Assembly (NCBI RefSeq): GCF_947623445.1
Contig: NC_135246.1
Location: 19,216,288-19,280,287 of the forward strand
Reading direction: 5' to 3'
DNA: 64,000 nucleotides
From: Clavelina lepadiformis
Lineage: Eukaryota; Chordata; Ascidiacea; Aplousobranchia; Clavelinidae
The translations under genes and the position numbers were made by a program. Of this stretch, positions 11,317 through 49,600 are shown piece by piece. The notes beneath the pieces were generated by a model. It had not been told where the DNA came from. It searched no databases and saw only the letters and a program-made list of their open reading frames with translations. Every line of letters starts with the position of its first letter. The stretch's first letter is position 1.

Positions 11317-11412
11317 AAACGAGATGACACCAAACCAAGCTTTTAACAATCTTATTTTCAGCCTAAAAATTAACCGAAAGTATCAAATTTCGTAACAACT
11401 AGTTGAACAACA

Positions 11413-12701
11413 TTGATGATGACGTCGGTAATAGCGCACGTCTTAGCATTGGCGTTGGCTGCTAATCTGGCGACACTTGTGCTGAGTCAAAATGAACAAA
11501 TTTGTCTGAACGTCCGACGCGACCCGCAAGGAGTAGCTAATATTAATGGTGTGCCAGGGCCGCCTGGAAAACGGGGAATACCCGGAGTTCAAGGCCCGCA
11601 AGGAACCAAGGGAGACCCTGGTCCGCCAGGTCGATGTGAGTGCGATCGAAGCGAAGTCGTCGAACTGAAGGAAATGTTATTTCGCTTGCATCCAAATTTT
11701 CGAGGTAAACTGCAAACAGTTTTAAAGTAGGTTAGATGCGTTGTGACAAAAAGATATGTTAAGGAGGGCCATATGAATATATTTGCATATACTTGGTCTA
11801 TAACAAATACGCTATTTTATACGCGCAAACAATAAGTTGCTATTGACTCAAATACTTCTGATATCGTCTTTTAGTGCTTTGTTGTAGCAGAAATACTTAC
11901 TTTAAGTGATTTTATTGTTCGCCATGTATACGAATCGTAACTTACCATTTGCTACGATCCAACGAAGAGCTGTATTAAATTTTACAATATCTGGTTGTCA
12001 GTCCTGGAGATCCACCATATTTGAAAATTTTCAGCAATTTTACCTCTTTTTCAGAAGAAATGTGCTCGGTGGGTGTGAAGAGCGGGACAGTCCGGGATGA
12101 GGATATGACAGCATCGTCGAACTACTGGGACAGACGCTATATCTCATATGCTGGAAGATTGGACGGAGATAAATTTTGGCACCCAGATGCATCCAAGTAT
12201 CGTAAGTTTTTTTTTTTTTTTCAGTAACTATTCTGTCCAAGCAGACAACACGGACGAAAATCGAAAACTGTGATGCATGGTAATGAGTAATGACGCAATA
12301 TTTTAACGACGTAATATTTTCATACAGAGTCACCAGGCGAGTGGCTTCAAGTTGACTTGAGAACTCCGACCACAGTGACAGGTATAGTTACACAGGGTGC
12401 TTCTGGATACTGGATGACAAGCTTTAAGGTATCACTTGGAAATTCCACCGATCAGCTTCAAGTGATACAAGATGTCGATGGAAACGACGTGGTGAGCTTT
12501 ATGCTTGAGCGCAGGTCGTGCTTTACAATCTTGTTTATTTCAAACTTGTTTCTGACCCTACAGATTTTCCAAGGCAACACTGACCATAACACTCACGTGC
12601 AAAACATGTTCCCGAACCCGATCAAAGCCAGATACTTTAGGCTTATTGTGGTCACTTTCCACAGATACATCGGCTTACGCTTGGAATACCTGACTTGCTG
12701 A
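11413..12701 (+). CDS. secreted collagen-discoidin protein 1
   Basis: Exons 11413-11704, 12055-12201, 12328-12491 and 12564-12701 join in phase to 246 residues. Order: signal peptide (about 1-25, ending LATLVLS); a Cys-containing linker; ten Gly-X-Y collagen triplets (46-75); CEC, then a short acidic heptad-like neck (80-92); and an F5/8-type C (discoidin) domain from C101 to the terminal C246. Domain signatures seen are [19 protein letters not shown] and the [10 protein letters not shown] and SFKVSLGNS stretches, plus the paired outer cysteines. Discoidin domains bind sugars, lipids or proteins; a collagen stalk implies trimers, as in collectins and ficolins. First of three tandem copies. 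Function is inferred to be soluble recognition or matrix binding. Three ATGs in a row open the frame; the first is used. Reading past intron 1 would end the protein at once. Confidence 0.88.
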
Positions 12702-13367
12702 GACCACGAAACGACCGATGCTGAAAAGACCGACCGACGCTGAAACGATTTCATAAATACCGATCATTAATTGCTCTTATAAAATATAACTATACCACTA
12801 ATTATAGCTGCTAAAATAACTACTCGTGTGTGTATACAGAAACAGAAAAAAGCGTATAATAAGTCTATAATATCTTATTGTTAATACAGAAATCTAATGA
12901 ACAGCGTGGGCATTGGGTTGCGTAAATGCAAAGTGACCTTTGTGTGTATATAAACTTTTTCTGCATCTGACGCAATAATCAGCCACCTTTAATGACGGTA
13001 ACAGTCGATTTTGATACTGGTAGGAAATGAAGCTGCCGATATTTTTAGGTTTCAGTTGCTCCAGTATCATAAACTAACAAAATTTTTTGACACGAGATAT
13101 GTACTATAAGAAGGGATTGACAATCTCGACTTGAAACAGAAACTTTCCTTCAACGAGCGTACAGTTAAGCAGGGAACCAATGCACCAGACGTAATTAGCA
13201 CGTAAAGCGAAAATACAGACATCAATTGAGATTCGGGCAAACAACAAATTAATTAAAAAACTCGGTGAATGAATTAAACGTCAAATGTTTGCGAAACGAA
13301 TCAGAGGTTTTTCTAATTTATGCGTGAAGCACATTGATTGAAACACATTCTCGTATTCAGACTCCGG
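12702..13367. other. non-coding stretch after discoidin gene 1
   Basis: This is the expected 3'UTR of discoidin gene 1. No canonical AATAAA is seen close to the stop. No other feature is recognised up to the minus-strand gene. Confidence 0.5.
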
Positions 13368-16729: not shown

Positions 16730-16763
16730 TTGTTTCAGTTCGCAGAGGGACTGTCAATTCAAG

Positions 16764-18640
16764 ATGACGTCATTGACAGCCGCCTGCTTAGCACTGGGGT
16801 TTGCTGTTAATCTGGCGACGTTTGTACTGAGTCAAAATGAACAGATTTGTCTGTCTCTTCAACGTGGTGCTCTAGCGCCACCCCAAGGCAGAGGCCAGAA
16901 CGAACAATCTGAGAGACGGGGAATTCCAGGACCACGTGGCCGAAAAGGAATGAAGGGGAATCCCGGTCCTCCCGGCCGATGTAAATGCGATCTGAGTGAA
17001 GTGGTGGAACTTCGAAAAACTTTTGATCGTTTGCAAGGTAAAAAACTTAGGTTCACCCAAGTTTTCTGAAATTGTTTTATCTGAACTTCTGTTGCTGATA
17101 TAATTTGTCTTTTCATTTCTGAAACACATTTCTGTGAACTTGTGGATAGAATTGGGTTCAAGTATCATGGCTTGTGCTTCCTGTATAGTTTTAAGTAAGA
17201 GAAAATCGCTCTTTTTCCATGGCACGAGTATAAATAGAGCAAAGTTGATTTTGAGAACGCAGAGATGTTCTAATATCGCACCTCTTAGTACGCACCTGAT
17301 GAAGCTTTTGCTTGTGAAAGCCCGTGAAGTACAATTAAAAATAAAAGATAATCTTATAGAGTGCCACATTGTATTCTGTTTTTGTGTTTTACTGATATCT
17401 GCAGTAACTCTTCTTGGTTCTGTATCGCAGTAACTTAATCTTGTCCGTGTTGTTTGAAACAAACTTTGCTCACAAATAGCGGACGTAAAAGCGCAGATAA
17501 GTCCAGAATATTTGAGCTCCAGATCTGTCCTAAATTGTTACATTCAAGAATTTATCAAAAATTTCAAATTTATATTTTGCAGAGAAATTTTGCTTTGCTG
17601 GTGTGAAAAGTGGGAAAGTGCGAGATGACGAAATGACCGCGTCGTCATTCTACGACCAAAACATGGCCGCTAGTGAAGGAAGATTGGATAGTTCAGGCAG
17701 AATAGGAAACTTTTGGACGCCTTATCATTCAAGATGGGGTAAGTTGTACTTCTCGGCAATAAACAATCCATGGTGGCATCCACGATAAGATGACGTAATA
17801 ATTTCTTGCAGAGACGCCAGGCGAGTGGCTTCAAGTTGACTTGAGAACTCCAGCGAGAGTGACCGGTGTAGTTACCCAGGGAGGGGCTAGCTGGTGGGTA
17901 AAAAGCTTCAAAATATCATTTGGAAATTCCACCGAACAGCTTCAAGTGATACAAGATGTCGATGGAAACGACGTGGTAGGTTTCAAACAAGACGTAAGTT
18001 CAATTGTTACCACGACGCCCTTTCTTGACCTCGGTTGCACGCGTTGCACAGAACGTATCTGCAGATCGTTGTCTGTGGAATAAAATCTACCGCATTCTAG
18101 AGTAACTTAAACTCCAAAACTCTTAATTGCCTCTTGATCGCAAGTTTTCAAGCAAAATCAAAATTCAGAAACGATTTCAAACTGAAGATTGCTAACAAGC
18201 TTGTGCGGTTTTTCCGCTTTTTCGACATTTATTTGTTGTCTCATTGTCTGTGGGAATATTTACATTCAGTTACGCTGTGACGATGCTAGCGATATTGTTT
18301 TCGCTTCCCACAGTGGCCTGAAATAGACCAGCATACGAATTAGTCGTGCTATCACCATACACAGCTCTGCTGTTTATATTAATCGTGTTATAATTAATTA
18401 GTTATATTTAGTTATATGGTTAATTAGTTATTATCGCAACTAGTTCTAGTTAATTAGTTATAGTTAGTTAGTTAATCGTTAATCGTGTGCTTTACTTTGT
18501 AGATTTTCCCAGGCAACACAGATCTCAATAGTCATGTACAGAATATGTTCCCGAAACCAATTGAAGCCAGATACTTCAGACTTATTGTCCTCACTTTTCG
18601 TGCCGTCATCGAGTTACGCTTGGAGTATCTGACTTGCTAA
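16764..18640 (+). CDS. secreted collagen-discoidin protein 2
   Basis: Exons 16764-17037, 17583-17738, 17812-17975 and 18503-18640 join in phase to 243 residues. Architecture as in copy 1: signal peptide (1-23, ending TFVLS), a linker with QNEQICL, seven collagen triplets (53-73), CKC, a neck (SEVVELRKTFDRL), then the discoidin domain from C95 to the terminal Cys. The discoidin part has [42 protein letters not shown] and ARYFRLIVL. Third and fourth exons have exactly the same lengths as in copy 1 (164 and 138 bases) and all intron positions are shared, so the genes arose by tandem duplication. The collagen stretch is three triplets shorter than in copy 1. The start ATG is followed by ACGTCA, forming the octamer TGACGTCA. 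Confidence 0.88.
18391..18482 (+). repeat. TTAGTTA-type AT-rich repeat in intron 3
   Basis: Irregular repetitions of ttaattagtta, ttagttatat and tagttagtta lie in the last intron of discoidin gene 2, just before its acceptor. Probably a decayed microsatellite. Confidence 0.6.
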
Positions 18641-21002
18641 GTTCGCGACATCTGAAGTCCACAAGACGAAAATTGTAAAGTTCACAACAACATGACCAAC
18701 CGATGTTGAAACGGATATCCTATAATTGCTAAAGTCATGAATATTTCCATTATGTTTTCTTATATACCTCTTTTATTCATGTGTTTATAGAAACTCAACT
18801 ATATAACGTGTCCAACTCTCCATGTCACTGCTCAAAGTGAGCGGCAAGTCCAAAAACAAATTGGCCTTAAATCAAAGTGTAGTTGTCGGTAATTAAACTT
18901 CTCCAAACAGACTTCACAATTTCATCACTAGCTCCGATTCCCACTTCACCGGGGAATCAACACCCAGAATGGTCTGGGTAAGTTTGACCGCCTGCGAACC
19001 GACGTTTGGTTGTTTCGCCCAACCCGTGCAAATGGGGAGATGCAAATGTTGCCGCTAGTGGGCGTGTCACGAGAAAGCAAACCGCACACTGTCGCTTTAA
19101 AGTTTAAACCAAGGGGTCGCAAAATATGCTAAAATGTACAGTGCAAATAGAAACAATCGTTAAACGAAACTTTCGTGAACCTGAACGTTTCTTAAACATT
19201 TTCTGGAGAAAGTTGTCTACGCCCCACTTAATTATACCATAGAAAACTGACGGTTAGGTTATAGGCACAGATTTCATAGCCCAAACTAATTTATTGTGTC
19301 GCCTGAAGCCTAGTTGGGTCGTGGTCTCGTTTTATCGTGGCTGCTTGCCTTGTAATTAAGGCACTGACGTTTTTTTCTCTTTAACTGAAGCTCATTACAT
19401 TTAGTTTGTTGGTGCCGACTTGAGTGTAGGTTTATGTTTATTGCCAAGGTATTTTACTTTTAAGTAATATTGATCAATATACGTGGCATCATTGGGCTCG
19501 CTAGGGAATTATTTTCCTTGAATGGCAAGATGACCAAAATTTTCAATGGCTTGCCACACTGTAAGTCGACGAAAAAGAAGCCCAAGTATAGCAATAGAAG
19601 TGCACTCACGGTAAGATTTACGGTCTCTGCCTCTTTATCTGTTCACTTCACGAAGCCAATTGCAAATGCGAGGGCAATAGAGAACGTTTCGGGAAACGAT
19701 AAAAAGACAAGAAAAAAGAAAAGTTTTTCTTTTTTTTAGTAAGTCTCGTCAATCGTAATTTTTAATAATAATATTATATATTAATTATATAGAATAGATT
19801 ATAACCTGTCAGCATATTTCACGCGAACAAATCGTGCATTCAAAGCTGTTTTTCCTGTCCTATTAAACGAGCTTAAATTTTATAGCATTGTAACGAAAAT
19901 CTTTCTTCCCGTCTAAATCTAATTTCAATGTTTTAATTTAAACCCTAAATAACTAAAATCAACATTTACGAACATCGATTCTTCTTACCTAACAACCTAT
20001 CTTTAACAATGGGCTGCGTGGCCGATATATATTTACGGCGAAATAGTTACTCAATTTTGAGTAAGCCAATAATTTAAAGTAGTGCAGTCTGGAAGGTAGT
20101 GACGTAACTTTGATATAAATATAGCCCAAGCTAACATCGATAACTGGAGAAGAGTGGAAACGGACTTTTTGTGCTTATGCCGATATCCAACGAAAAACAT
20201 GACCCGAAAGTTGCGCAAGATCCAGCACTTAGATAGGGTCAGGAACTTTTTTGTACTACTAAAGATCTTGCGTAGCCAGCAGCCTTGCGTGTGCACCAGC
20301 GCTAGTGCAACAATAACGTTTTTGTTAGGTGTTTGACACGTTTAGTTTAATTATTTTACGGTTTTTTATGTTAAATATGTTTATATGTTCGTTACTTGTA
20401 GATTTTTACCGGTATCTGGCATATTGTTTGCTGGTTTCTCTGTCGCCACGTACTTTTCATTTTATCTATTTTGTGCGTTGTTTTGTATTGCACGAACAGT
20501 ACAGTGTTAGCATTCCCTGCAGCACAAGCTTTTGTAAGTTTAGTTGTTTTGCCTTTGGCCGCGTAGCGTCATCCTTAATTACAGCAGCAGTTCCGCATCG
20601 TTTTGCTTACGTCACAAACTTCCTCTGTTCGGTTGTGAGTGTTGGTGAGAAGACAGAACAAGTCCCGTAGTTCTTCTCAGTTAACCTGTCGATCTGGTCA
20701 TAGTATTTCTACCTCGAAATTTTAAAACACGTTGTGGTTATAGAGATTTTGCTGCGCCCCAATGTACTAGCGTAGTGGTTGCCGTTGCTGCTTTATCTTC
20801 CCTTAGATTTGTTGTTTGATGTATTCAAGTTTTATACTTCTCAGCCGGTCAACACTCAGTCGGGCAAATGCATTTCCTTAATTGCTTTGAAACGTTCTTT
20901 TGTTGATCGACTTGATCATGAAAGGTTGTGCGCAGATCTGTGTTGCATAAAATACTCGTCTCAATTCATATTTTGTTGCATTTTGCAGAACAACAATTGA
21001 AT
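18641..21002. other. spacer between discoidin genes 2 and 3
   Basis: Non-coding apart from the interspersed repeat at 19801-20015. Short open frames at 19470-19739, 20051-20336 and 20329-20670 have no splice or homology support. The segment before 21003 should hold the promoter of copy 3. Confidence 0.5.
19801..20015. repeat. interspersed repeat, family unknown, copy 2
   Basis: It shares the ordered blocks atcgtgcattcaaagct, aactaaaatcaac and cctaacaacctatctttaaca with 4021-4258. Ends are unclear. Confidence 0.45.
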
Positions 21003-22993
21003 ATGACGTCATTGATAGCTCTTGTTCTAGCATTAGTGTTCGCTGTTGTGCTGAGTCATAATAACCACGAAATCTGTCTCTCTGTTCCTGAGTGGGGGGC
21101 ACCAGGGCCTCGCGGCCCGGAAGGGTTTAAGGGCGATGTCGGGCCAACTGGCCAGTGCCAGTACAATCTAAGGGAAGTCGTCCAACTCAGAGAAGAGTTG
21201 TTTCGTTTGCTCGAAGCTCTTCGAGGTAAATTAATTATCAACGAAGGTATTAGTAAGTTGGTTGCAATATGCTAAAATTTTATTAAGATGTGTCGGAAAT
21301 ATATTGACGAAATAATAATTTCAACATCCTGAAAAAAGTAACATAAAAATGTTTATACTATATCTATGGTGAAGAATAAATGTATTTCTAAAATATGATG
21401 TCACGAAAAAAATTAATCTGTTTTTAAAGTTGATATGAAATCGAAATTTTAAAACTTTCACTCAAAAATTTTCCGCTGACCAGTTTTATCAATGCACTGA
21501 ATCGTAATAATCGAAGCATCCCCTAATAAATGTGCTGTCTATGGTTTTAATTTCATTAATCATTTTGCACACGAATAGTGGGCTCTTCTTTCCGAAGAAG
21601 TGCATTCAATCCTGAAACTCCTGGCCATGGGTTTTGGAAACTCTCACACTTAAACTAATCCAGCAATAGCTTTACATATGTCGTTTACATTTTGCAGAGG
21701 ACACTTGCTTGGTTGGTGTGAAAAGTGGGAAAGTGCGTGATGACGAGATGACCGCGTCGTCATTCTACTTGCAAATTTATGCTGCTCATCAAGGAAGATT
21801 GGATGGAGACGGTTTTTGGCATCCTGACGTATCGAAATACGGTAAGTTTGCTTACTGTATAGTCATTAGTCATTACACATTAGAGTCATGCCACGCGACA
21901 GTTTAGGGAACTTCCCGCTGTTAGGGCAAGTCACTGAAGCCGAATCTACAATTTCCCAAATGCCGGCATCTGCCGACAGAATAAAAGCAGCGTTTTTGTG
22001 TAATTTTCGTAAAAACCTTCATAATTGGGGCAGAACTTCATTCAAAATCACTTTTCGCAATCGCTGCTATCACTAGAAATGAATCTAAAATCAGCCAAAA
22101 TCCAGTGCGCCGCCCAGCAAGCTAATTAAGAATGGAGCGTTCCTTGTCTCGAGGGGGAAAGCGTAAATGGATTTCGAGGCAATTCCGCACCTTAGGCTGA
22201 TTACGCAATTTATAAAACGTGAGAGTTTCAATCGCAACTTAAACAAGTGATTAAAAACAAATAATATACTTTAACTCTGTGCGCGTTCTAAATGTTGCAT
22301 CTGTGCATAAAGACACAAATGAGAAAAGTTTGACCACAAACTTACTCTACGTGGAGTGGAGAACGTCGCTTGCAGCGACAAGCAGACACAAAGCGACCAT
22401 GCGCGTGCATGACTGTACGACAATTAAACAAGCTATATATGACGAACGACACGAAACGTTAAAAACATACAAAAGTACAAAAATACAAAACCTACATTTC
22501 GTTACAGTCATTTACGGACGTTACAGTAGCTATTAAAACATCTGTCAATGCTGCCACGATATAATGACGTAATAATTTCTTGCAGAATCGCCAGGAGAGT
22601 GGCTTCAAGTTGACCTAAGAGGGCCGACCACAGTGACAGGTGTGGTCACCCAGGGAAGTGGAGGGAGCGCAGGTTGCACGACTTGCTGAGTGTCGAGCTT
22701 TAAGATATCGTTTGGAAATTCCACCAATCAAATGCAAGTGATAACAGATGTCGATGGTAACGAAATAGTAAGTTTGTGATTCAGCTCCAAGCTGTTACCT
22801 GTTTATGTCAGGCTATACTGATCTGTTATGGTTAATCTTGTGTTTCTTTTTCTAGATTTTTGAAAGCAACACTGATCGTGAGACTCGTGTGCGGAATATG
22901 TTGCCGAACCCGATCAGAGCGAGATACTTCAGACTTATTACCGTCACCTTTCACGGCCGCATCAGCGTACGCCTGGATTATCTGACTTGTTAA
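21003..22993 (+). pseudogene. collagen-discoidin gene 3, with nonsense codon
   Basis: Exons 21003-21225, 21698-21841, 22586-22767 and 22856-22993 keep the phases of copies 1 and 2 (229 codons). Signal peptide (ending AVVLS), seven collagen triplets (32-52), a neck (LREVVQLREELFRLLEALR) and the discoidin domain are present. Exon 3 is 18 bases longer than in the paralogues and contains an in-frame TGA at 22687-22689, codon 157, where copies 1 and 2 have Trp (SGYWMTSFK and SWWVKSFK; here TTC-stop-VSSFK). The rest of the frame stays open and conserved to a normal LTC end, so the loss is recent, or this is a null allele or a sequence error. If real, the product would lose the second half of the discoidin domain. 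A poly(A) signal follows at 23229. Confidence 0.7.
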
Positions 22994-23720
22994 GTCCGGT
23001 TAAATCCACTCCGAGACCGGCCTGTATAGAGACTACCAATGTTGAAACGGGTTTCTTATTTACTACGTCATAAATATCTTTATTACAACTGTTATATATT
23101 TTTGCGTATAAATGAACTTCAAATAATGTCTACAATCACGTGAGCTTTTTACAAAATATTTTTAATTTTAGCACTACAGCTAGAAAGTAACAATGCTTCA
23201 TATTTATTTTACTTCTGCGATGGTTGGCAATAAATATATCAAATTTCTGCTTTTTGTAAATTTGTACAAATTAATAAAAATCTAATGACTCTTGAATTTC
23301 TGGCCAAGCCTCAAACAAGTAAACGAGTCAGTAAGTGTAGAACGGATGAGCGCAAAGTAGATTTTCACTTAATACTTTGGAATTTCTTGGAAAATTGAGA
23401 AAAAGTTCAAAGAATTGGGAGAAAAGCCTAATTAAATGTTGTCATTCATCGATTAAGTCGAAATATTAGCGCTACCAAGAGGTTTACCAGCGTAGTCATT
23501 TACTCCGCCAGATGGCGATGAAACAACGATCAATCCATTAATCGTTATGATGTCATAAACGGATAGGCAAGCGCAAATTTTGGAGATAAAAATTATGACA
23601 ATTTTCAGCTGATCACGAACTTACGGACAGCTAGGCACCATTTTCAGACATCAAATTGAGGTAATAAGTGAAAAAGGAAGTGAAAAACCGTTCACGGAAG
23701 TGACGTATAAACTGGCATTG
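22994..23720. other. 3' flank of discoidin gene 3
   Basis: It contains poly(A) signals and an otherwise unremarkable spacer. No coding sequence is recognised. Confidence 0.5.
23229..23234 (+). terminator. poly(A) signal of discoidin gene 3
   Basis: AATAAA lies 236 bases after the stop codon, and a second copy occurs near 23273. Confidence 0.5.
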
Positions 23721-26651: not shown

Positions 26652-28976
26652 TTAGATTTTTTCAAAAGTGATCTTGGTCGGAAATTTATCTGCAACTGAT
26701 CCAACGTTGTTCGAAAGATCTCCAGATGTGGTCGCTCTGGTCGAAACGATTCCATCGCGATGATATATTTTACGTCCAGTTTCGATTAACAGCGCTTTGT
26801 TGTCATGGAAACTTGGAGCGAAAGCGTTGTTTGCTAAATGTGTTGACATGGGACGGCACGTCGTAAACCCGCCGTGCGCATGCGCGGAATTTCCTCCCGG
26901 GGTTAGATTTCTTTGATCGCTGGTGTCGCTGTTGATTGAAAAGTGGCAAACAGCTCGAGGCAGATTCGCGCAAAGATCGATGCGTTTCAATCTTTGGTCG
27001 ACGTCACTGCGCGCTTTCAACATTTCATCGAAGCCGCTATTTATACGAGAGGAATTCCCGGGCATCGATGGCCGTGTGTTGTCGCGCTGGCAAACTCTTC
27101 CCGGTGAGAAAATGCTAGAAAGAGAAAGGCGGATGACGCTATTTTGTTATTACGAGATTGAAACTGATAAGCATAATCGTTAATCGATAATCGTTTTGGT
27201 TGCTAGGCAACACCCCTCACCTTGCATGGAGCCTCATGTGGGTCTTGAGGTTGCTCGTTGAGCTAAACCGCTTATGACAAACAGCGCACTCGTGCGGTTT
27301 CTCCCCAGTGTGGACGAGGTGATGTTTCTGGAGGTGGGCGAGTTGGGTGAAGTCTTTGCCACAGACGCTGCATTTGAACGGTCGCTCCCCGGTGTGAACA
27401 CGAAGGTGAACCTGGTAATGGAAAAAAACGATTAGATGCACCACAATAGAAAGTAAGGATGTGTAAGTGACAGGTTTTTTTTAAACTGGAGTCCACGGAT
27501 CCCAAAGTGGTCTTTGAATGAATTTTAAGGGGCTTCGTTTAAGACCATCAATATGATGGAGATTCGCAAAAATCAAACAATTATATTTAGGGCTCCGTGT
27601 TCTAAAACCTCAACGACCTTTGCCTTGGTCACATATGCAGTTGACACGTGTCGTCTAGTTAAGTTGGGTTTTACCTTTAAATTGGAAAGTTGTCCGAATC
27701 TCTTCATGCACACGTTGCACTCGTACACGATCTTTCCATTCTCCTTGCGCAGCGGATAAGGAAGCGATTTGTAGCCAGATCCTCTACGGTTCTGTAAGTT
27801 CAGCTGAACCTTCTGCTCCGTTGAATGGGACTCGCTGCTAGAAGTGTGGCGTGTTGTCAACATTTCAAGTTTTTTGCTGTGTTTTTTGTCTCCAATAACG
27901 GATGATTTTTATTTTACCGTTGATAGAGGGCCAACGTGCTTTCACTGCTTTCTTGTTGTTGGGACAGCATGTGAGTAAGATGTCTATGAGAGGGATGCGA
28001 GATCTCTGCGACGTTTTGATAGAGACTAGTTCTTCTTAGAGGGGCTTTCCCATATGATTCTAAAGCAGACAAATCAAAACAGCGCAATCATCCAAGGCTT
28101 GTTTTACTTTAACAAATATTGCAAAAAACATTAAAATGCAAAACTTTATGTGGCGTCAGAAATCTATCAACTTAATGCTCCATTAAGTTCATTGTAGAAG
28201 CGACTTCATTATTATAAAGATCGTGGTTATTCGTGGTCATTATATAAAACGTCACTAATTATTAGGCATCGGTGTGCCTTGTTACGTAATAATAAGTAAC
28301 GTTGCAGAAAATGTAATGTCTAACCTGGTAACGCCGCTGTATGCTGCCGAGCTTCGTTGAAACGCGACGTCGACATAATTGCGTCACAATGCGCGCTCAC
28401 GTCCGGTTTGTAGGAGCCTTCGGGGCCTGCATTGAACGCACCTTCTTGGTGATTCCCCACCGAATTACCCACGGCGACGTTGGCGAGCCAGGAACGCAGC
28501 AAGTGGGGATAGATGGCGGTGGCGGCGGCAAAGAAGGCGTTGTAGTTGTCGCTGTAACTCACCACATCCTCCGATGTCGATCGGAGCGGCATCTGGTTGC
28601 GGACAAGGGCGGTATAAAGCTTCGCGAAATCGAGCATTTTCCTCCAGGGAGAGGAGAAGGAGGAGGAGGACTGCGTTTCGTCGTTCTTCATGACGCGCTG
28701 ATCATTATGACGTTGGTTGTTATTCTGGTCGAGTCTCTCCCTCTTCGCCGCTGAAGATAGCGAGAGGTCAAGTGGACCTTCTTCTGACGTCATAGGCGGT
28801 GCGTCGGCGGTACTTCTTGCGTGATTACTTGAAGTCGAATCCCACGCGTGGCATTTATACGGAAGAGTCGAATTTTCGTCTTTTGTCGCGGTGTTTTGCC
28901 TTTTGTTTTTGCCTACGTCATTTTCGTTGTCGACCTGCCAGGGCTGCCAAGTTTTTTTTGAAAGTTTGTTGTTCAT
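26652..28976 (-). CDS. Prdm1-related zinc-finger protein A (third paralogue)
   Basis: Minus-strand exons 28976-28325, 28059-27918, 27876-27675, 27411-27221 and 27114-26652 close in phase to 549 residues. Three C2H2 fingers (about 316-395) begin with [17 protein letters not shown] and continue with [18 protein letters not shown] and [16 protein letters not shown]. The preceding [15 protein letters not shown] is the PRDM1/Blimp-1 hallmark. No SET/PR domain is seen. The N-terminus has PLDLS (68-72), a CtBP-binding PxDLS motif, but lacks the eh1-like motif of B and C. The fourth exon can also be read to a TGA right at the donor; the spliced form (donor aag|gtgagg, acceptor tttctctttctag) adds a 154-residue tail unlike B or C. 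Probable sequence-specific repressor. The finger exons are firm; the last exon is less so. Confidence 0.82.
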
Positions 28977-29344
28977 TTTATCCTGAAATACTTTGTAGAG
29001 TGACCAGAAACGAGAAACAAAAATTAAGAATCTTCCAAGGCTGGAACATTGCCGCCATGACGGTTCTGGCTGTTTTATTCCTGCTTAGAAATTAGAAGCG
29101 TTAGCGTTTCTCTTTAATTGTAACAAATTATAGCAAAATATTTGATGATGTCTGAATCGTGTTAACCCAGGATAACATTAACATAACAATAACATTACTT
29201 CTATTCCTAATTTCTTCACACAAGCTTTCGCAAGCATCGGCTTCATTGGGCGTATTAAGAGATGATTGTGCTGCTTCAATTGTATCTTTTCATTGATTGT
29301 ACAACTTCATTAGGCGTTCTCTTAGTACACCTGATGCAGCAATC

Positions 29345-34143: not shown

Positions 34144-36363
34144 TTAGAACCATCGCAGGATCTGTGGAATGCTTCCTTGGTGGAACGGATGCGAGGACGC
34201 TGAGTAGGAAGATTTTGTGGAAACCGTCCTCATCGGATTCGACGAGAATTCATTGCTAAATTAAATTTACTCATTAAGAGTGACGTCCATCATATGATTT
34301 TAGACTTGCTTCCATTTGTAACTAAACCTGGTTTTTACCCACCTTGCATGGAGCCTCATGTGGGTCTTAAGGTTGCTCGTTGAGCTAAACCGCTTATGAC
34401 AAACAGCGCACTCGTGCGGTTTCTCCCCAGTGTGGACGAGGTGATGTTTCTGGAGGTGGGCGAGTTGGGTGAATCCTTTACCACAAGTGTCGCATTTGAA
34501 CGGTCGCTCCCCGGTGTGAACTCGCAGATGAACCTGGATGACGATGAGGCCACAATAAAAACTTTTGCCCTTTGAGCTTAAATTAAACTGGATGTGCTGT
34601 TCATAAAACGCGAATACGAATTTCCTGTATGTCTTAGGGATGACTATAAAAGCTTTTGGCGTCAAATTGTCGAGGTTTTTACCTTTAAATTGGAAAGTTG
34701 TCCGAATCTCTTCATGCACACGTTGCACTCGTACACGATCTTTCCATTCTCCTTGCGCAGCGGATAGGGAAGCGATTTGTAGCCGGAGTTGGGACCTCGT
34801 TTGCACCGCGTCGAGCCTGGCGTCGACGATTCGCTGCACGGAGAGATATTTATCAAGTTCAGGTTTATCAGCAGTTTATCAGCTATTTTCGCGTTATCCA
34901 CGCGATTCGTGTACCTGCTAGTTGGGGAGGAAGCGCCTCTGTTTGTCGACTGGGCTGGTCTGGGGAGGTTCTGGTGAGTTTGGAATTGACTCGAGTTGAA
35001 CCTAACAAGTGGGTTGTTGAGCAAGTTGAAAACTCTTTGACCACTTCGCCACGTATCTGCTGATGATGATGATTTTTCGCTCAGAGCCGCGCGTCGTGCC
35101 GAATACGGGAACGGAATTTCTTGATAAACAAAAAAGAGAAAAGAATTATTTGCCGCATTTCACGACTCTCAACTTGTAAAGGTGGTCTTTCAACTCACTT
35201 GGGAAGGTCGAATGAGTGGAAAGGCCCCAGCTAGGAGATTGGAGCCCAACACCCAACCCCGACGTTGGGAGCTGGAATGTCGCGGGATTCGGAGCATTTT
35301 TTCCCGAGGTTTCCATCAACTTCTGGAAGTGGTCGACGTAACTTGATCCCTGGAGTTGAAGTGGAGGACGTTTTCCTGATGCCGATGAAGAGTGGAACAG
35401 AGCGCTATCCCACAACATCTTGTTCATCTGCATGACGTAGTAATCATGCGGGAGCACCGGAACAAAACCGGGGTTGGCAAATGGAGGGACGGGGACCGAT
35501 GATACGGGCTCACGGGCTCCATCATCAGCGGGTTTCGCCGGCTTCACTTCTTGCTTCCCACTTTCCACAGCGGCTTCTACGCTTGAGGTTCTTCTGCTCG
35601 GCTGGGAGCTGGACTTTATTTCATCGCGTTTTTCAGTCGTGGAAAGATTTAAGGCTTCTTCTTGACAATCCGAAGAATCTGATTTAGCCGACAATTCACT
35701 AGAAGGTGGATTAAGTTTGTCATCTGCGCCCATTTTTCTATCTTTACCCACACGTTTGTCCGACTCGACCGGTTTTGTTTGAGAATCGACGTTTTGGCCA
35801 AATGTCTGCGGGGCTTGGGAATGCTCAGATCCGGCCGGCCGAGCATATTTTTTCTGTTCCTCGGCTTGCCTTGCCAAAAAATGCGAGTTCATGGCATAGA
35901 GGAGGTTTTGGTAGTAGACAGGCAGACATGTCGTGTTCTTTTCATCGGTTGCTGTCTCGTTTATATCTCCGGTCGATTTATTTCGCCAAAATTGTTCGAG
36001 AACTCGGTTCCGGGGCAAGTCCTTCCACGTCGACGGAACATGGGTGTTACTTTCATTGGGACTGGGGCTACCACTTCCGTACCCACTATCTGAAGGGGAT
36101 GTGACGTCTTGATCGAGAAGGGACTTCACCGAAAAGTTGCTGCATCGAGACTTGCCCGGAAGCTTTAGGGACGGCAACGAAGCGATCGCGTTTCTTCGCT
36201 TCTCGGGCGACCTATTCGCGAACTCTTGGGTTTTCGTGTCGCGTTTCGCCATAATGTTGCACTTGATGTCGTGAGTTGCTTTTCCGGTCTCCGGTTTCAC
36301 GGTATTAGCTTGACGGGGAGCCGTCCACAGTACGACGGGTCGATCAGCCCTAGCTTGACTCAT
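34144..36363 (-). CDS. Prdm1-r: Prdm1-related zinc-finger repressor B
   Basis: Minus-strand exons 36363-35199, 35119-34915, 34833-34683, 34533-34343 and 34255-34144 close in phase to 607 residues. The N-terminal half has an eh1-like Groucho-binding motif FSVKSLL (77-83) followed by [16 protein letters not shown], and [19 protein letters not shown] further on. The [15 protein letters not shown] block precedes three C2H2 fingers (about 491-570). The last exon, after acceptor taatttag, ends PQILRWF; skipping that splice would give a short tail ending KWKQV. No SET/PR domain. Ciona Prdm1-r.a and Prdm1-r.b (formerly BZ1 and BZ2) are tandem early-embryonic repressors; B and C are the best candidates for this pair, but which is which cannot be told. 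Its finger exon is a mosaic of C-like and A-like sequence. Confidence 0.87.
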
Positions 36364-39300
36364 GCTTCGTGCAGAAGTTTATGCAGCGGTTTATTTTCAG
36401 TTGAGTTTGAATAAGAATTTCTAAAATGAAATATAATTCAGAAATATTTTTTATGTTTTTATTATAATAGTCTATGTTCATATAAGGCTTAGTTCTCCTG
36501 TCCAAACTAAATAGCCAAAAAACACTTCACTTTTCACTAAAATTTTGTTTCAGTTTTCTGTAAATATTACAAAACGTCAATCGAAAAAATGCCTAAACTC
36601 AATAAAATCTGCTGCATTAACAATGACTGAAAATTTACCCAAAATAAAATCAGTCTGTCTCAAATCAAGCTTGTCTCTCTTTTGCTGACAGCTTCGAAAT
36701 TACGCAAATATCTCTGCATTGCATTGTCAGTAATTGCTCTACAACTTAACTTAATTATGATCCCAAGCTAAAGCGACTAACCGCAAAATTCAACTGACAA
36801 CTACAACTGCCAGGGCGTAGGTTCATCTTGTTACAAGTAATTACACATCGATGAGCTTTCTGTGTCGCTTATTCGCTTTTATTGGGCTGTGCGTGTAGAA
36901 GCGACGATCGCTTGTAACCGCTTAATACTTATTCCCACTTAACCCTTTTTCTCACGCAACTCGCTGTTTCCACTTCGCCTTTTTCTCGCAACAGACCTGA
37001 CGACTTAATCATTTTATTAAAATAACTTGAAAGGTTTTGATCGTATACTTTTAAAGCGCGCAATGCAATATTTTTACCCCCTTCGACAATCTACAACCCA
37101 CAGATTTTTACCGCGTAATCATAGTCTGAGCTCTTCCTCATTTATGGGCAAATTTGTTGATTAAAATTGACTTCAACCTGCAACAAGTAATTGTGACGTA
37201 ATAATAAAGTGTTGCTTTTGTCACGTGTAGGGGTAGAGCATCGTGGGGATTAAATTTAGAGAATCCTTTATGAATTTCCACCCCTGCGCTCTGATGCATT
37301 GTTTCGAACGCGTAGGCAGGTGAGCTATGATGGCGCACATTCTTCCTGTTCATAAACCAACTTGCATTATATGACTTACTGGGCTTTTGTGCTTTTAGAT
37401 TTTGTGATTTAAACGCCACATAACCGCCAGCGATCCTATCCACTTCGTTACGTCATAATATGTCAATTGTCTTGTTTATTTGATTTGTTGAAGCCGATTT
37501 GTGCGCCAGGTTAGGATTAGGAGTTTGTCGCGTGAAAGTTAAACAAACAGGGCCGCTTTATCCGGCCTTGTATTTGCAGGTTTGTCTTGAATAATGAAAA
37601 ACAAACAAAAACATTTTTCCTCGTCGCCGGCAATCGGGGACAAGTTGATTGTTGCTTTTTCATAATGTTATCGCTTTTTGCCCGCTCTTAACAAAAGCAA
37701 CACTGATAAGAACTTGCGTTGCGCGGAATTGTTTTTGACTTGTCTCAAAACTCTTCTTTGACGAACGAAGCTTGGAATAAAACGACAACTTCCTCATCAT
37801 TGTCTAGAAAGGGTGGTATCTGCAATTAGCGGATGCGACAATTAATTCACATTTTCAAGTCCGGTGAAGATAATTAACTTAAAATTACACTCGCGCTGTC
37901 TTTCGCTTTCAACAGCCTATGAACGCAAACTACGTCATTCAAGCCTAACCAAAGCGATGGCGTCACACTGACGTCAACTACACTTGTAAGCATTTGATTA
38001 ATTTCACATTCTCAGTTCAGTCGCTGCTGGCCTCAAAGCGCCAAAGCCTTGTTGCGAAAAAACACCAAAGCGTTGGTGCGCTATTTTGATAATGACACAT
38101 TTCGAGCGGGTGCTGCGCTCATAACTTTCTCATAACAATATGGCGGAAACGTACCAGGCTTCGTTCTACTGTTGGTTTGTGACGTCACATTGTTATGCTG
38201 ATACTAATCTTTAGTGAAGATAAATTAGACGACAAGACTGGTTGGGTCTAATGTCTGTATCATAGACTTTGAGCCTCGATCCCCTGAAACATTTCCTATT
38301 CTAAATCCAGTTTCACAACTACTTTGACGGCCGACAGGTGTTGGTTTTGATTTTACATCTGCGCATGTATTCTGTGTCCGTTGTTGGCGAGGAAAGGCCC
38401 CGATTTGTGAAGCGATTAGTTGTCCTATAGAACGTTAATGCGACGAACAAGTGTTTTGACCCATTGTCTAACTTCTATCTCCCGAAGCGGGGCCGATATA
38501 TTCGCACGGGCGAAATACGCATCGTTGCCGACTCTTGCTTGCCGTCGTTTCGTGGAAAACATTTTTGTGAATCATTCGCGGTTCGCTATTATGCCGTCGA
38601 TCAAGCAAATAATGTCTTTTCCTGAGCAGAATCTGTTCTCCGATTCGGCCAGAATGTTCGGCTCGTGTATCGCGCCGAAGAACAATTGAATCCCGATTGT
38701 CAGTTTGTGCGCGTGTTGCCGGTATTATGCCGTTCAGTTTAAAGGTAATTATGCGAAGATAAGACAATATACTTCCTAGGCTGTCAGGTGGCTTAAATAG
38801 ACCTCACCTGATGGGCTGACTGCCTTTAAATATTAAAAGAATCGACTGAATGCAAAATAACAATCGCTTCAGCTTTTTTTTTCAATAAATATCGACTGAG
38901 TCTTTGCCGTTAAAACCATTTAAAATCTTTGTTTGTTTCATTTAAATCAAATTGTGGCTGCTTTGCGCCTTTTCAACCGACTTTACGCGATGGTTAATGT
39001 GATTTCTATGCTTGCATATAGCTATATGACGTAACTGGTACGAGGGCAGCCGGTGAAAGGTCGCCGCTTAATGTCGACAGAATAACTCACTTCCTACATG
39101 ATCACGTGATCCTACCCCGAAACATTTCCATTCATAGGAGACAAGAAATGAAATGTTCGACCCAGTTTTTATGCTTTCGATGAAATCATCAAACAATGAC
39201 GTCATAGCTAATGTTTTCATCTGTGTTTGTGCCTGATTGTTGCAAAATCTCATTTCCTAAAGAAAGCTCCATTTTTTGAGTCGAAGAACATCAGCTTCAC

Positions 39301-45046: not shown

Positions 45047-46692
45047 CTAAAACCACGGCCTCAGTGGAACGGTTCGTGATTGGTGGAATTTTGTCACGTG
45101 AGCTGCATCGGGGGTTTGAGATAGCGGATAACCGATGTCGGTGACGTAATCGCCGCTGTAAGAAACGAAATGGCGTTAAAATCGATATAAGGATCGATCC
45201 ATCATCTTCAAAGCGATGTTACCCACCTTGCATGGAGCCTCATATGAGTCTTGAGGTTGCTCGTTGAACTAAACCGCTTATGACAAACAGCACACTCGTG
45301 CGGTTTCTCCCCTGTGTGGACGAGGTGATGTTTTTGGAGATGGGCGAGTTGGGTGAATCCTTTACCACAAGTATCGCATTTGAACGGTCGCTCCCCGGTG
45401 TGAACTCGCAGATGAACCTGGATGACGATGAGGCCACAATAAAAACTTTTGCCCTTTGAGCTTAAATTAAACTGGATGTCCTGTTTATAAAACGCGAATA
45501 CGAATTTCCTGTATGTCTTAGGGATGACTATAAAGGCTTTTGGCGTCAAATTGTCGAGGTTTTTACCTTTAAATTGGAAAGTTGTCCGAACCTCTTCATG
45601 CACACGTTGCACTCGTACACGATCTTTCCATTCTCCTTGCGCAGCGGATAGGGAAGCGATTTGTAACCAGATGCTGTCTTCTTCTTCCAAACAGTTGGCG
45701 AGATCAAGTCCTCACTGTGAAGTGAAGAGGTTCTAGTTGAAAAATCCAAACATCTACTTTAGTGTAAAATGCATGCGCGCAACTACCCTCTCATCCGGTT
45801 TATTACCTGCTGCTCTCAGGTGACTTGACCATCACGTGGCCAACTTCTCGCGTCGTTAAAGAAACTCGACCTAAATAGACATCATATTTTAAATCTATTT
45901 AAAACAAAAATGAAACCCGGGTTAAGATAGAACGGATGACGTCAACAATATCTCACCGTCACATCCGGATCGGGAGTATTGGTGATGTTGTTTGTCATCA
46001 ACCGATGATCCATTCTTCCTCATCGAAGTCAAAAAATCCTCCGTGTTCCTCATCTTGATTTGAGGAGGAGCGACTCTGCTCGCGATCAGGGCGTTCTGCC
46101 AGAGAAGCTGCTTTAGATGATTTGCGTAAAGCTCGTCGGCGAGCGGAAGGGGCGGAAATGTTGCGGGAACCAAAGCAGCTCCGAAGTTCAGAGGAGGCAA
46201 GCTGTGCCGGTGTTCTCGTTTCACTTCTTCGCTTAAAAGTTCTCGTTCGGGTTCGGGGAAAGAAAACTCAGACATCGAGTCGGATTTGGTCATCGGCAGC
46301 ATTTTCCTCGGCCATGACCCGGCAGGAATAGTTGGAAACGCGCCGGGGTTCTGCACGAGCATCGCGTGGTTCACGGTATTCAGAAAGTGATGGTAACACA
46401 TTGTCAGCATTGGGTTTACGAGCGCCGGCATGGAGGAGACAGAAGTTTTAGGATGAAAATCTTCTCCAATCTTCTCCGAGTCTCCTTGCTGCGTCCTATC
46501 TTCATCATGGCAGTCAACAGAAGAATGAAGAGGGGACGGGCTTGAACTGCTGTACCCGCTGTCCGATGTAGGTGACGTCACGCTTCTGCTTAAAAGGGAC
46601 TGAATTGAAAAGTTTGACAATTTTTTCTCCTTTTCGTTTTCGGGCTTCGTCATTTTCTCAGATTGCATTTTTTCAAAAGTTGTTCGATCCAA
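45047..46692 (-). CDS. Prdm1-r: Prdm1-related zinc-finger repressor C
   Basis: Minus-strand exons 46692-45957, 45870-45807, 45714-45567, 45417-45227 and 45155-45047 close in phase to 415 residues. There is an eh1-like FSIQSLL (28-34), then [17 protein letters not shown]; a second conserved block, [20 protein letters not shown], matches [16 protein letters not shown] leads into three C2H2 fingers (about 300-379) identical in protein to those of B. The final exon (acceptor tttcttacag) ends VPLRPWF, comparable to the LRWF end of B. Without that splice the protein would end HARWVTSL. No SET/PR domain. Exon 3 could start at 45732 instead of 45714, keeping the frame. Likely a DNA-binding transcriptional repressor in the early embryo, by analogy with Ciona Prdm1-r genes. 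Confidence 0.87.
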
Positions 46693-49600
46693 ATGAACTT
46701 AATGCGGATTTCACTGCAGCTGAGGTCTTTTATAAAACCTACGAACAGCAAGTTTGTCTGTTTTCCAAATACAAATTCATGACTTGCTTTAAATCAACCA
46801 TCTTTGTATATATTTATACTTATAAACAAAACTTAGTTCACCCTCTTTTTAAAATTTAAATTGAATTGTTTCACTTGATTGAGCGTCTAAAGCTCAGCCC
46901 AATTTATTGCGGAGCTGAAGATGCCGACATTTTGACGCATTCGCTTGAACTGGCTCACCTCAACCCTATCTCGGCTGCACTGGCTTATAAATAGTCTGGG
47001 GTTGGGTTTCTTAAAGCCCCAGACTCAGAACGTTTTTTCCCAAGTTGCCGTTTGGGCTGAAAACGTTTTTCTAGAAGCAAACAACAACGCGGTATCTCGT
47101 GGTTTTTCCTCAAATCTATTATTACGTCAGTTTGTTATATTTTTAGTGTCTGTCGCTATCCTAGTATAAAGTTTACGCGCTTCTCTGATATAACAAAATC
47201 ACGCTTTTAATCAGTCCATTGCATGAATTCGTTTCGTCACCTGGGCCACCGAATAACTAAAAATAAGGTGCATCTGAAAGAAGTTGAGCTTACCCAACCT
47301 ACTGTGGTAATATGCGAGCACTTGTCGTCGCCGCGCCTGCTTAAATCGAGGACCTGGCAAGAATTAACGCGCTTATTGTGCCAGCAGCTAGGTCGGGGTC
47401 CCCTGCAGAAAATAATTTTGTTTGTATAAGTGGCACTGGTGTCAAATTTATGTCAATACTCTCCGCGAAAGTTAAACACAGTGGTCACTATCGCTCAACC
47501 TGATTGTCTTCTGTTTGTTTAAGATAAAGTGCATTATGGTGGAATAACTTCGCCAAAGTTTAGAAATCTAATGCACCGTTGGCTGACTGTGTGCATTTGT
47601 ACCTGGCACCATTGATAAGGAGCTCAAGTCGCATGCGTTTTATTGCAGTTAACGCGATTATGAGATATCTATGTGCGCTGCATGGAAACGAAAACTCAGG
47701 AATTCTTAAATGGCCGATAAATCTGTGCTAAAACAGAAAAAATATTATTCTGATTATTTTTTTTCTCTGCTCAAACTTTCATTCACACAAATCGGTATTG
47801 ACACGGATGTTGATTGTTTACTGTGGTGGTTAATGTTCCCAGTCATATAAGCCGTGGAATTTGTTTTTCCTTGTTGTTAAACTGCCGATGCATTGAGCTT
47901 ATAATATCCCGGCGGATTATTGGAAAGTTATAATTTGTTTGCATAACCCCATAATTTCTCTTTAACATTAACAATAACCCGTCGTATGAGTCTCTGCATA
48001 TTTGCCGAGCACCTACACTAAAAAAAACAAGTTGAATTTAATCAAACAGCGAGTTTGCTTCCTGCAATTAATCATATCAACCTTTGTTTGCCGCACGTCG
48101 GAAATTAAACAAGTTTTCCGTAAATTATTAATAATTCCTTGCAGAGAATTATTAGGTTGAGCGATTTCGGCCGGGAACTTACGGATTTTCGCAACAGCTT
48201 AATGTTTAAAAGTGACCGTATTTCTGGTTCATTTTACTGAGCCCTTCGCAGAAGTCTTTTCACAGAACATCTGTTTGCATCTGCCTTCTACATACGAGTA
48301 GCTAAGTGACGTGTTCACGTCGTAACAATGGGCGTTAAAGTGTCGATGTCAATTCTGTCATTCCGCCGCGCGAAAGCTGAACTATTTGAATCGTTTGCGA
48401 GTTGAATAATATGTCAATTAAATATCTGATTTTTCCACGAAGTGAGCAATCCAGGAACCGCTTCCCATCTCGGATTTGATTCTTCCATCTCGGCTTTCGC
48501 GGAAAAGATTCACAGCATCTTGTCTCCGCCCACTTCACTATAGGATACGAGTTGAAAACTTTTAGGAAAATGTTTGTGACAACTTCTCCAGTATCTGCAG
48601 ACATCTGGTCCCCCTACTGCTTCGTTCTCAAACCTTCCATTGATTGTTATCCGTTCCCAACGTCCCGGTGTGGATGACGCAATACAGGTTATGACGTATC
48701 TATTGCAAGAACTTTGTTATGGTCGAAGTTTGCCAATGATATTGATCAACGAACCGTTCATTGCAAGTGTAAAGTTGTTGAACAATTCTCTGATTGTTTT
48801 CTGATTTTACGTATCGAGTCACGCGAAGTCGATTTCCGAGCGATGTCAGATCAGCATTCACGGCTTGTCGACGCCGAAACGCGATTCGTTCGCGGGCCGC
48901 TGCACCCCAAGCTAGCCCGGAAATGTTGTGACTTTACACCCGATTCTGTTGCGGGTTGTTGAGCACAGGTGCGCGCTAGCCTAACTCTGACGTCACTGAT
49001 TAATTCTGGTTTGATTTGATGCCGACCGGTTGGTATAAGATTAACGACTAATTACGACCCTTATTGTGATATCATAATAATTAAACTTTTATAAAAAAAA
49101 TTTGAAGTTTTGCGCGCCGATGACTTGGACCCAATCACGTAACGTCACACTTCAGTGCACGTCGTATGCTGATGACGGTTTCATTTCCGAGTTTTTTCGC
49201 GAAAAAGAATAGGATTCGCGTGCAAGGGCGCGTAATCTAATATTATCGCGTTCAGTGATGACTAAAGTTAGTGCTATAGCCCAGTGACCTTGTTTCGTTG
49301 GGTCCTCTTACTTTTCCGTATCCTGTTACCAGTGTGGGGGTTTAACCCGAAAGCTTGTGTTACTCTGGAAACTTGTCTGCTCGAACCGGGACACGTTCTA
49401 GCGACCTCTTAAACCTTCTAAGCTTGACACGGTCTTTGAGAAACCTCAGTAGCTACCACGAGCGGCAATAAATAGCTTCAATATTTTATATTCAGCGGTT
49501 TGTGTCGTCACGAAGCAAGGTGCGGAAATTTTACTGATAAAAGAATTGTGACGTCACAAGAGTTTTTATGTTACTTGATCCCACGAATTTCCAAGCGATA

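Follow-up and report, generated by a model that had tools for sequence, protein, structure and literature searches.

A young zinc-finger tract shared by old tandem duplicates of the ascidian Clavelina lepadiformis points to gene conversion

In Capitella teleta, a pair of Dlx genes is described as having undergone gene conversion centred on the DNA-binding part together with some adjoining intron, and mosaic is the authors' own word for the outcome (PMC3199776). The same paper cites hexapod engrailed and invected (Peel et al. 2006, a title that speaks of concerted evolution) as a case of homeobox gene conversion, and repeated conversion is reported to homogenise the duplicated mammalian homeobox genes TPRX1 and TPRX2, the homeobox above all (PMC8208926). 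Here, we describe three zinc-finger genes, named A, B and C, in a window of 64,000 nucleotides from Clavelina lepadiformis (positions 19,216,288-19,280,287 of NC_135246.1, referred to as contig C7); whole-genome searches covered the 209.06 Mb assembly of 95 contigs, and features are given in window coordinates. All three genes lie on the minus strand in one orientation, with neighbours spaced 7 and 11 kb apart, and each consists of a long N-terminal open frame followed by a cassette (exon 3, intron 3, exon 4) coding for three C2H2 fingers (Pfam zf-C2H2, three stretches). The cassettes of B and C share a young tract that lies inside old genes. We consider the whole pattern to be best explained, with a probability of about 0.68, by old tandem duplication followed by B-C conversion and a separate A-B exchange. 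Exon and intron limits, listed below, were taken from splice sites read off the sequence alone.

34683..34787, minus strand: gene B exon 3 conserved core (35 residues, first finger); 2 differences from A and 3 from C, all silent
34534..34682, minus strand: gene B intron 3, 149 bases; differs from C intron 3 at 3 of 149 sites
34343..34533, minus strand: gene B exon 4, 191 bases, coding for the last part of finger 1 and for fingers 2 and 3
34533-34459, minus strand: bases 1-75 of B exon 4, C-like by site comparison
34458-34343, minus strand: bases 76-191 of B exon 4, A-like by site comparison
34490..34781, minus strand: lowest-divergence B-C tract in the segment scan (0 of 5000 simulations as extreme)
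34335..34342, minus strand: eight bases past B exon 4, GTGGGTAA; the same in C, with A differing at 4 of 8
27675..27779, minus strand: gene A exon 3 core, compared in sequence with B and C
27412..27674, minus strand: gene A intron 3, 263 bases; no clear alignment with B or C
27221..27411, minus strand: gene A exon 4, compared in sequence with B and C
45567..45671, minus strand: gene C exon 3 core, compared in sequence with A and B
45418..45566, minus strand: gene C intron 3, 149 bases
45227..45417, minus strand: gene C exon 4, compared in sequence with A and B

Sequence comparison of the three cassettes gave a patchwork. The exon 3 core (105 bases) was nearly identical in all genes, with 2 differences between A and B and 3 in each of the pairs A-C and B-C, every one of them silent. 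Across the 453 bases of the cassette, intron counted in, B and C were 96.7% identical, and their third introns differed at only 3 of 149 sites. Intron 3 of A had no clear homology to that of B or C, as its best local alignment score was reached by 43 of 300 shuffles against B and by 3 of 300 against C. The affinity of B changed within exon 4: bases 1-75 differed at 1 site between B and C (cf. 11 for A-B and 12 for A-C), while bases 76-191 differed at 1 site between A and B (cf. 7 for A-C and 8 for B-C), all of these distal differences being silent. Read codon by codon, six unmixed codons common to B and C were followed in perfect order by seven common to A and B, apart from codon 15, which is mixed, and codon 55, where B stands alone. 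A preliminary description of this DNA had reported the near identity of exon 3, the unrelated intron of A, a start of exon 4 that departs from C once and from A at about ten sites, and an A-like remainder from which C differs silently at eight, all of which were recovered here. It had also put the B and C introns about four positions apart; the coordinates and the near identity held, and the count is three. Its assumption that the host was Ciona was not borne out, the DNA being that of Clavelina lepadiformis.

Two further features of exon 4 bear on the history of the tract. The identity of GTGGGTAA in B and C, immediately after the A-like stretch, hints that a B-C tract once ran through the whole exon and was later overwritten by the A-like stretch, although these bases lie at the splice donor and are therefore a weak marker of tract history. 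When distal exon 4 of B (34343-34458) was compared with that of C (45227-45342), seven sites set C apart from both A and B, and at six of them C has A/T where the other two have G/C, a pattern that could reflect GC-biased conversion in A and B or A/T drift in C. The G+C content of third codon positions (GC3) in distal exon 4 was 0.68 in A, 0.66 in B and 0.53 in C, cf. 0.63, 0.53 and 0.55, respectively, in the N-terminal frames; as a hint of GC-biased conversion this contrast is not conclusive.

Outside the cassette the genes proved to be far more diverged, as judged from the N-terminal frames listed here.

35146..36378, minus strand: gene B N-terminal open frame, ATG at ~36363; no Pfam match at an expect value (E) ≤ 0.001
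36046..36153, minus strand: gene B N-terminal motif, the best N-terminal match to C (22/37 identical, E 2e-9)
28320..29084, minus strand: gene A N-terminal open frame, ATG at ~28976; best matches to B and C at E 0.5
45922..46698, minus strand: gene C N-terminal open frame, ATG at ~46668; contains the SNFSIQSLL motif stretch (~46629-46519)

B and C have short N-terminal motifs in common, the best pair being that at 36046..36153, and in the two motif stretches that were compared the silent sites were saturated (15.25 of 19.5 differed). The frame of A was without a credible match to either gene. Flanks of 600 bases on both sides of the cassette aligned no better than shuffles in five of six comparisons, and the sixth, the B-C upstream flank, was marginal (1 of 100 shuffles). 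Because the N-terminal silent sites are saturated and the flanks are not clearly alignable, whereas the cassette is near-identical, B and C are old duplicates with a young shared cassette, and this in turn argues for ectopic gene conversion.

Divergence between B and C was also uneven within the cassette, amounting to 3/149 in the intron and, among the silent sites of exon 4, to 1 of ~19 proximally and 8 of ~23 distally (Fisher p = 4e-6 for intron cf. distal silent sites, the segment having been picked after seeing the data). For A and B the silent divergence was 5.5/18 in the proximal and 1/23 in the distal part (Fisher p = 0.03, segment likewise picked post hoc). That B-C divergence jumps exactly where A-B divergence falls, within exon 4, is the strongest single argument for B being a mosaic. 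A scan of neutral sites for the lowest-divergence B-C segment, which assumes the same freedom to change for the intron as for silent positions, delimited a tract that begins past codon 2 of exon 3 and extends to codon 15 of exon 4. This tract makes up 85% of the neutral sites and contains 4 of the 15 differences; with the choice of segment allowed for, none of 5000 simulations was as extreme. A single-breakpoint MaxChi test of the same pair gave p = 0.0076 with the break near the 5' edge, and MaxChi on silent exon 4 sites gave p = 0.0026 for A-B. In a 3SEQ-like permutation test, B was significant as the mosaic in exon 4 (p = 0.0019 for all sites, 0.016 for silent sites) and in exons 3 and 4 together (p = 0.0029, all sites), and A as the mosaic was significant in no site set. 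We regard gene conversion between B and C as very probable, and, given that, an exchange between A and B over distal exon 4 as probable. The proposal of the preliminary description, that conversion homogenises the zinc-finger module while the rest of each gene diverges, is thus well supported for B-C and only likely for A-B, and where it called for a gene-conversion test of exons 3-4 with introns, segment scans gave a clear result for B-C with the intron and no significance for any pair when confined to silent coding sites.

Several results weigh against two conversions, and they begin with the intron, which carries much of the statistical weight of the tests. Free-segment scans of silent coding sites without it gave p values of 0.13 (B-C), 0.12 (A-B) and 0.72 (A-C), and the silent sites of exon 4 alone gave 0.37, 0.07 and 0.76, respectively. 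The 3SEQ-like test with B as the mosaic lost significance for the silent sites of both exons (p = 0.16), and with C as the mosaic it reached p = 0.032 for all sites of both exons, being otherwise not significant. MaxChi found no significant break among silent exon 4 sites for B-C (p = 0.56) or A-C (p = 0.11), nor among the silent sites of exons 3 and 4 for A-B (p = 0.17) or A-C (p = 0.93); for the coding sites of B-C it gave p = 0.041, but with the break at the exon 3 5' edge, outside exon 4. The seven C-only silent changes could represent faster change in C, three sequences without an outgroup allow no change to be assigned to a branch, and all p values are raw, uncorrected for the number of tests.

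Under the explanation that we prefer, a C2H2 gene with three fingers would have been duplicated in tandem long ago to give A, B and C, and ectopic gene conversion would since have overwritten the zinc-finger cassette. The B-C event would have spanned ~290 bases, made up of the greater part of exon 3, the complete intron 3 and the beginning of exon 4, and perhaps the whole cassette, and what is left of exon 4 would go back to a separate A-B exchange; the third exon of A would also have been homogenised with that of B and C, its intron being left out. Purifying selection might keep the finger exons alike enough for neighbouring genes, at distances of 7 and 11 kb, to pair through them in the course of repair, with the flanks, the effector regions and the intron of A presumably too diverged to do so. 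At least two events are needed if the B-C and A-B conversions are both right; the number, order and direction of events are inferred.

The alternative of most weight, though we consider it unlikely, accepts conversion between B and C (and an older one in exon 3) and takes the A-like distal part of B as sequence kept by A and B while C changed faster. It agrees with the lack of significance in the silent-only coding scans, and the G/C-to-A/T direction of six of the seven C-only distal sites fits A/T drift in C. Faster change in C would, however, have to account for 8 of ~23 distal silent differences from B next to 3/149 in the intron and 1 of ~19 silent sites just before, and for the drop in A-B divergence from 5.5/18 to 1/23 described above (p = 0.03, post hoc segment). 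Selection at the nucleotide level on the finger exons, whether for codon use, splicing or a regulatory element, would dispense with conversion altogether and would suit an exon 3 that is near-identical in all three genes despite the unlike intron of A, but it explains neither the near-identical B-C intron nor silent change at about one third of the distal sites of C, and we hold it to be very unlikely.

Two other explanations appear highly improbable. Were B and C a recent whole-gene duplicate whose other parts evolve very fast, the N-terminal motifs that they share and that were not found in A would be expected; this reading is largely contradicted by the saturated silent sites of those motifs (15.25/19.5), which fast protein change would not produce, and by flanks that are not clearly alignable around an intron only 2% different. 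An assembly artefact from collapsed or misplaced reads deserves mention because short near-identical tracts can be mis-assembled, but no two of the copies are the same, and every copy has flanks of its own, with neighbours spaced at 7 and 11 kb. Moreover, if the assembly is kaClaLepa1.1, it is described as built from 117-fold HiFi coverage, with a quality value (QV) of 67.4 and haplotypic duplication purged.

The assembly was also searched for other copies and donors. When the B tract was searched against it as DNA, the four matches obtained all fell in the A, B and C loci, and a search with the exon 3 peptide gave three matches at 100% identity, the next best being 52% identical (E = 0.001; 150 of 881 candidates scored). 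DNA search of the assembly found no fourth donor for the cassette. Another C2H2 gene as the source of the start of A exon 4 was rejected at the sensitivity used, as a 91-base DNA search gave only the three cluster loci and a 26-base pattern with ≤ 3 mismatches gave only A. Large arrays of generic C2H2 zinc-finger genes occur on contigs C1, C3 (1.47-2.08 Mb) and C7 (18.41-18.62 Mb), one of them ~0.6 Mb from the window.

Conversion of this kind would have consequences for what the three proteins do. A, B and C have an identical second-finger helix, TQLAHLQKH, and the three amino-acid changes of A (S, V, D for D, T, G) precede it, by the helix numbering that we assume, which suggests that the three proteins should recognise the same DNA sites. 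The FS[VI]xSLL motif of B (36046-36153) and C (46519-46629) resembles what we take to be the Groucho-binding eh1 motif, and PLDLS in A (~28776-28762) resembles what is presumably a CtBP-binding motif; to judge by these motifs, different co-repressors may stand behind the same fingers in A cf. B and C. A more doubtful extension is that the three-copy cluster predates the split of Clavelina and Ciona and that conversion has since kept all three cassettes near-identical while the effector halves, and probably the promoters, diverged. If this were true, one target list would feed three separately controlled outputs. Trees built from the zinc fingers of these genes may misdate their duplications.

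Elsewhere in the window, a second tandem triplet on the plus strand (11412-12705, 16757-18645 and 21684-22998) provides a contrast: its aligned pieces were 70-85% identical, and no homogenised tract was seen among them over 11.4-23 kb. From their translations, we take these genes to be secreted-looking, with collagen-like stretches and exons resembling a discoidin (F5/8 type C) domain.

The likeliest affiliation of A, B and C is with the Prdm1-related genes of ascidians. Their exon 3 peptide resembles what we understand to be the first finger of Prdm1/Blimp1, and no library match names it so; the best 60 of 261 matches to solved structures were to other C2H2 proteins (ZNF568, PRDM9, CTCF), none named Prdm1. 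The N-terminal frames of A, B and C had no Pfam match at E ≤ 0.001, to a PR/SET domain or otherwise. A genome search for the PR domain (PRDM2_PR) gave 25 matches, 24 on contig C4, one on C2 and none on C7. The 24 matches on C4 fall within 250 kb (4,190,882-4,438,193), some with internal stops, which suggests that PR-domain genes have expanded here in this lineage. All three copies in the genome lie within the window, the same number as in the Ciona HT assembly. The Ciona genes, Prdm1-r.a-c, are described as three copies close together in the genome (PMC6836712), have also been named Bz1 and Bz2 (PMC5453608), and are counted as two copies in a later paper (PMC10530022). The Clavelina cluster resembles them in having three nearby copies in an ascidian genome, which does not imply gene-by-gene orthology. 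The main text of the paper on the Ciona HT genome does not contain the term 'gene conversion', and its authors state that the reason why ascidian early regulatory genes occur in small multicopy sets is not known to them (PMC6836712). For one such set, a conversion-homogenised cassette offers a testable answer, in that one DNA specificity is held while the rest of each gene is free.

We found no report of conversion in ascidian Prdm1-related genes in the open-access literature, subscription journals being mostly outside the search. That linked transcription-factor genes can undergo conversion centred on the part that codes for DNA binding has been described before, and the genes treated here are a further case, with zinc fingers and three copies. 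The hexapod engrailed/invected pair involves another domain in another lineage, and the conversion of TPRX1 and TPRX2 is seen across many species (PMC8208926), whereas ours is seen in one genome. The Capitella Dlx case concerns a homeobox and two genes in inverted orientation (PMC3199776); in Clavelina, the converted region encodes zinc fingers, and it is found in three genes that share one orientation and lie 7 and 11 kb apart.
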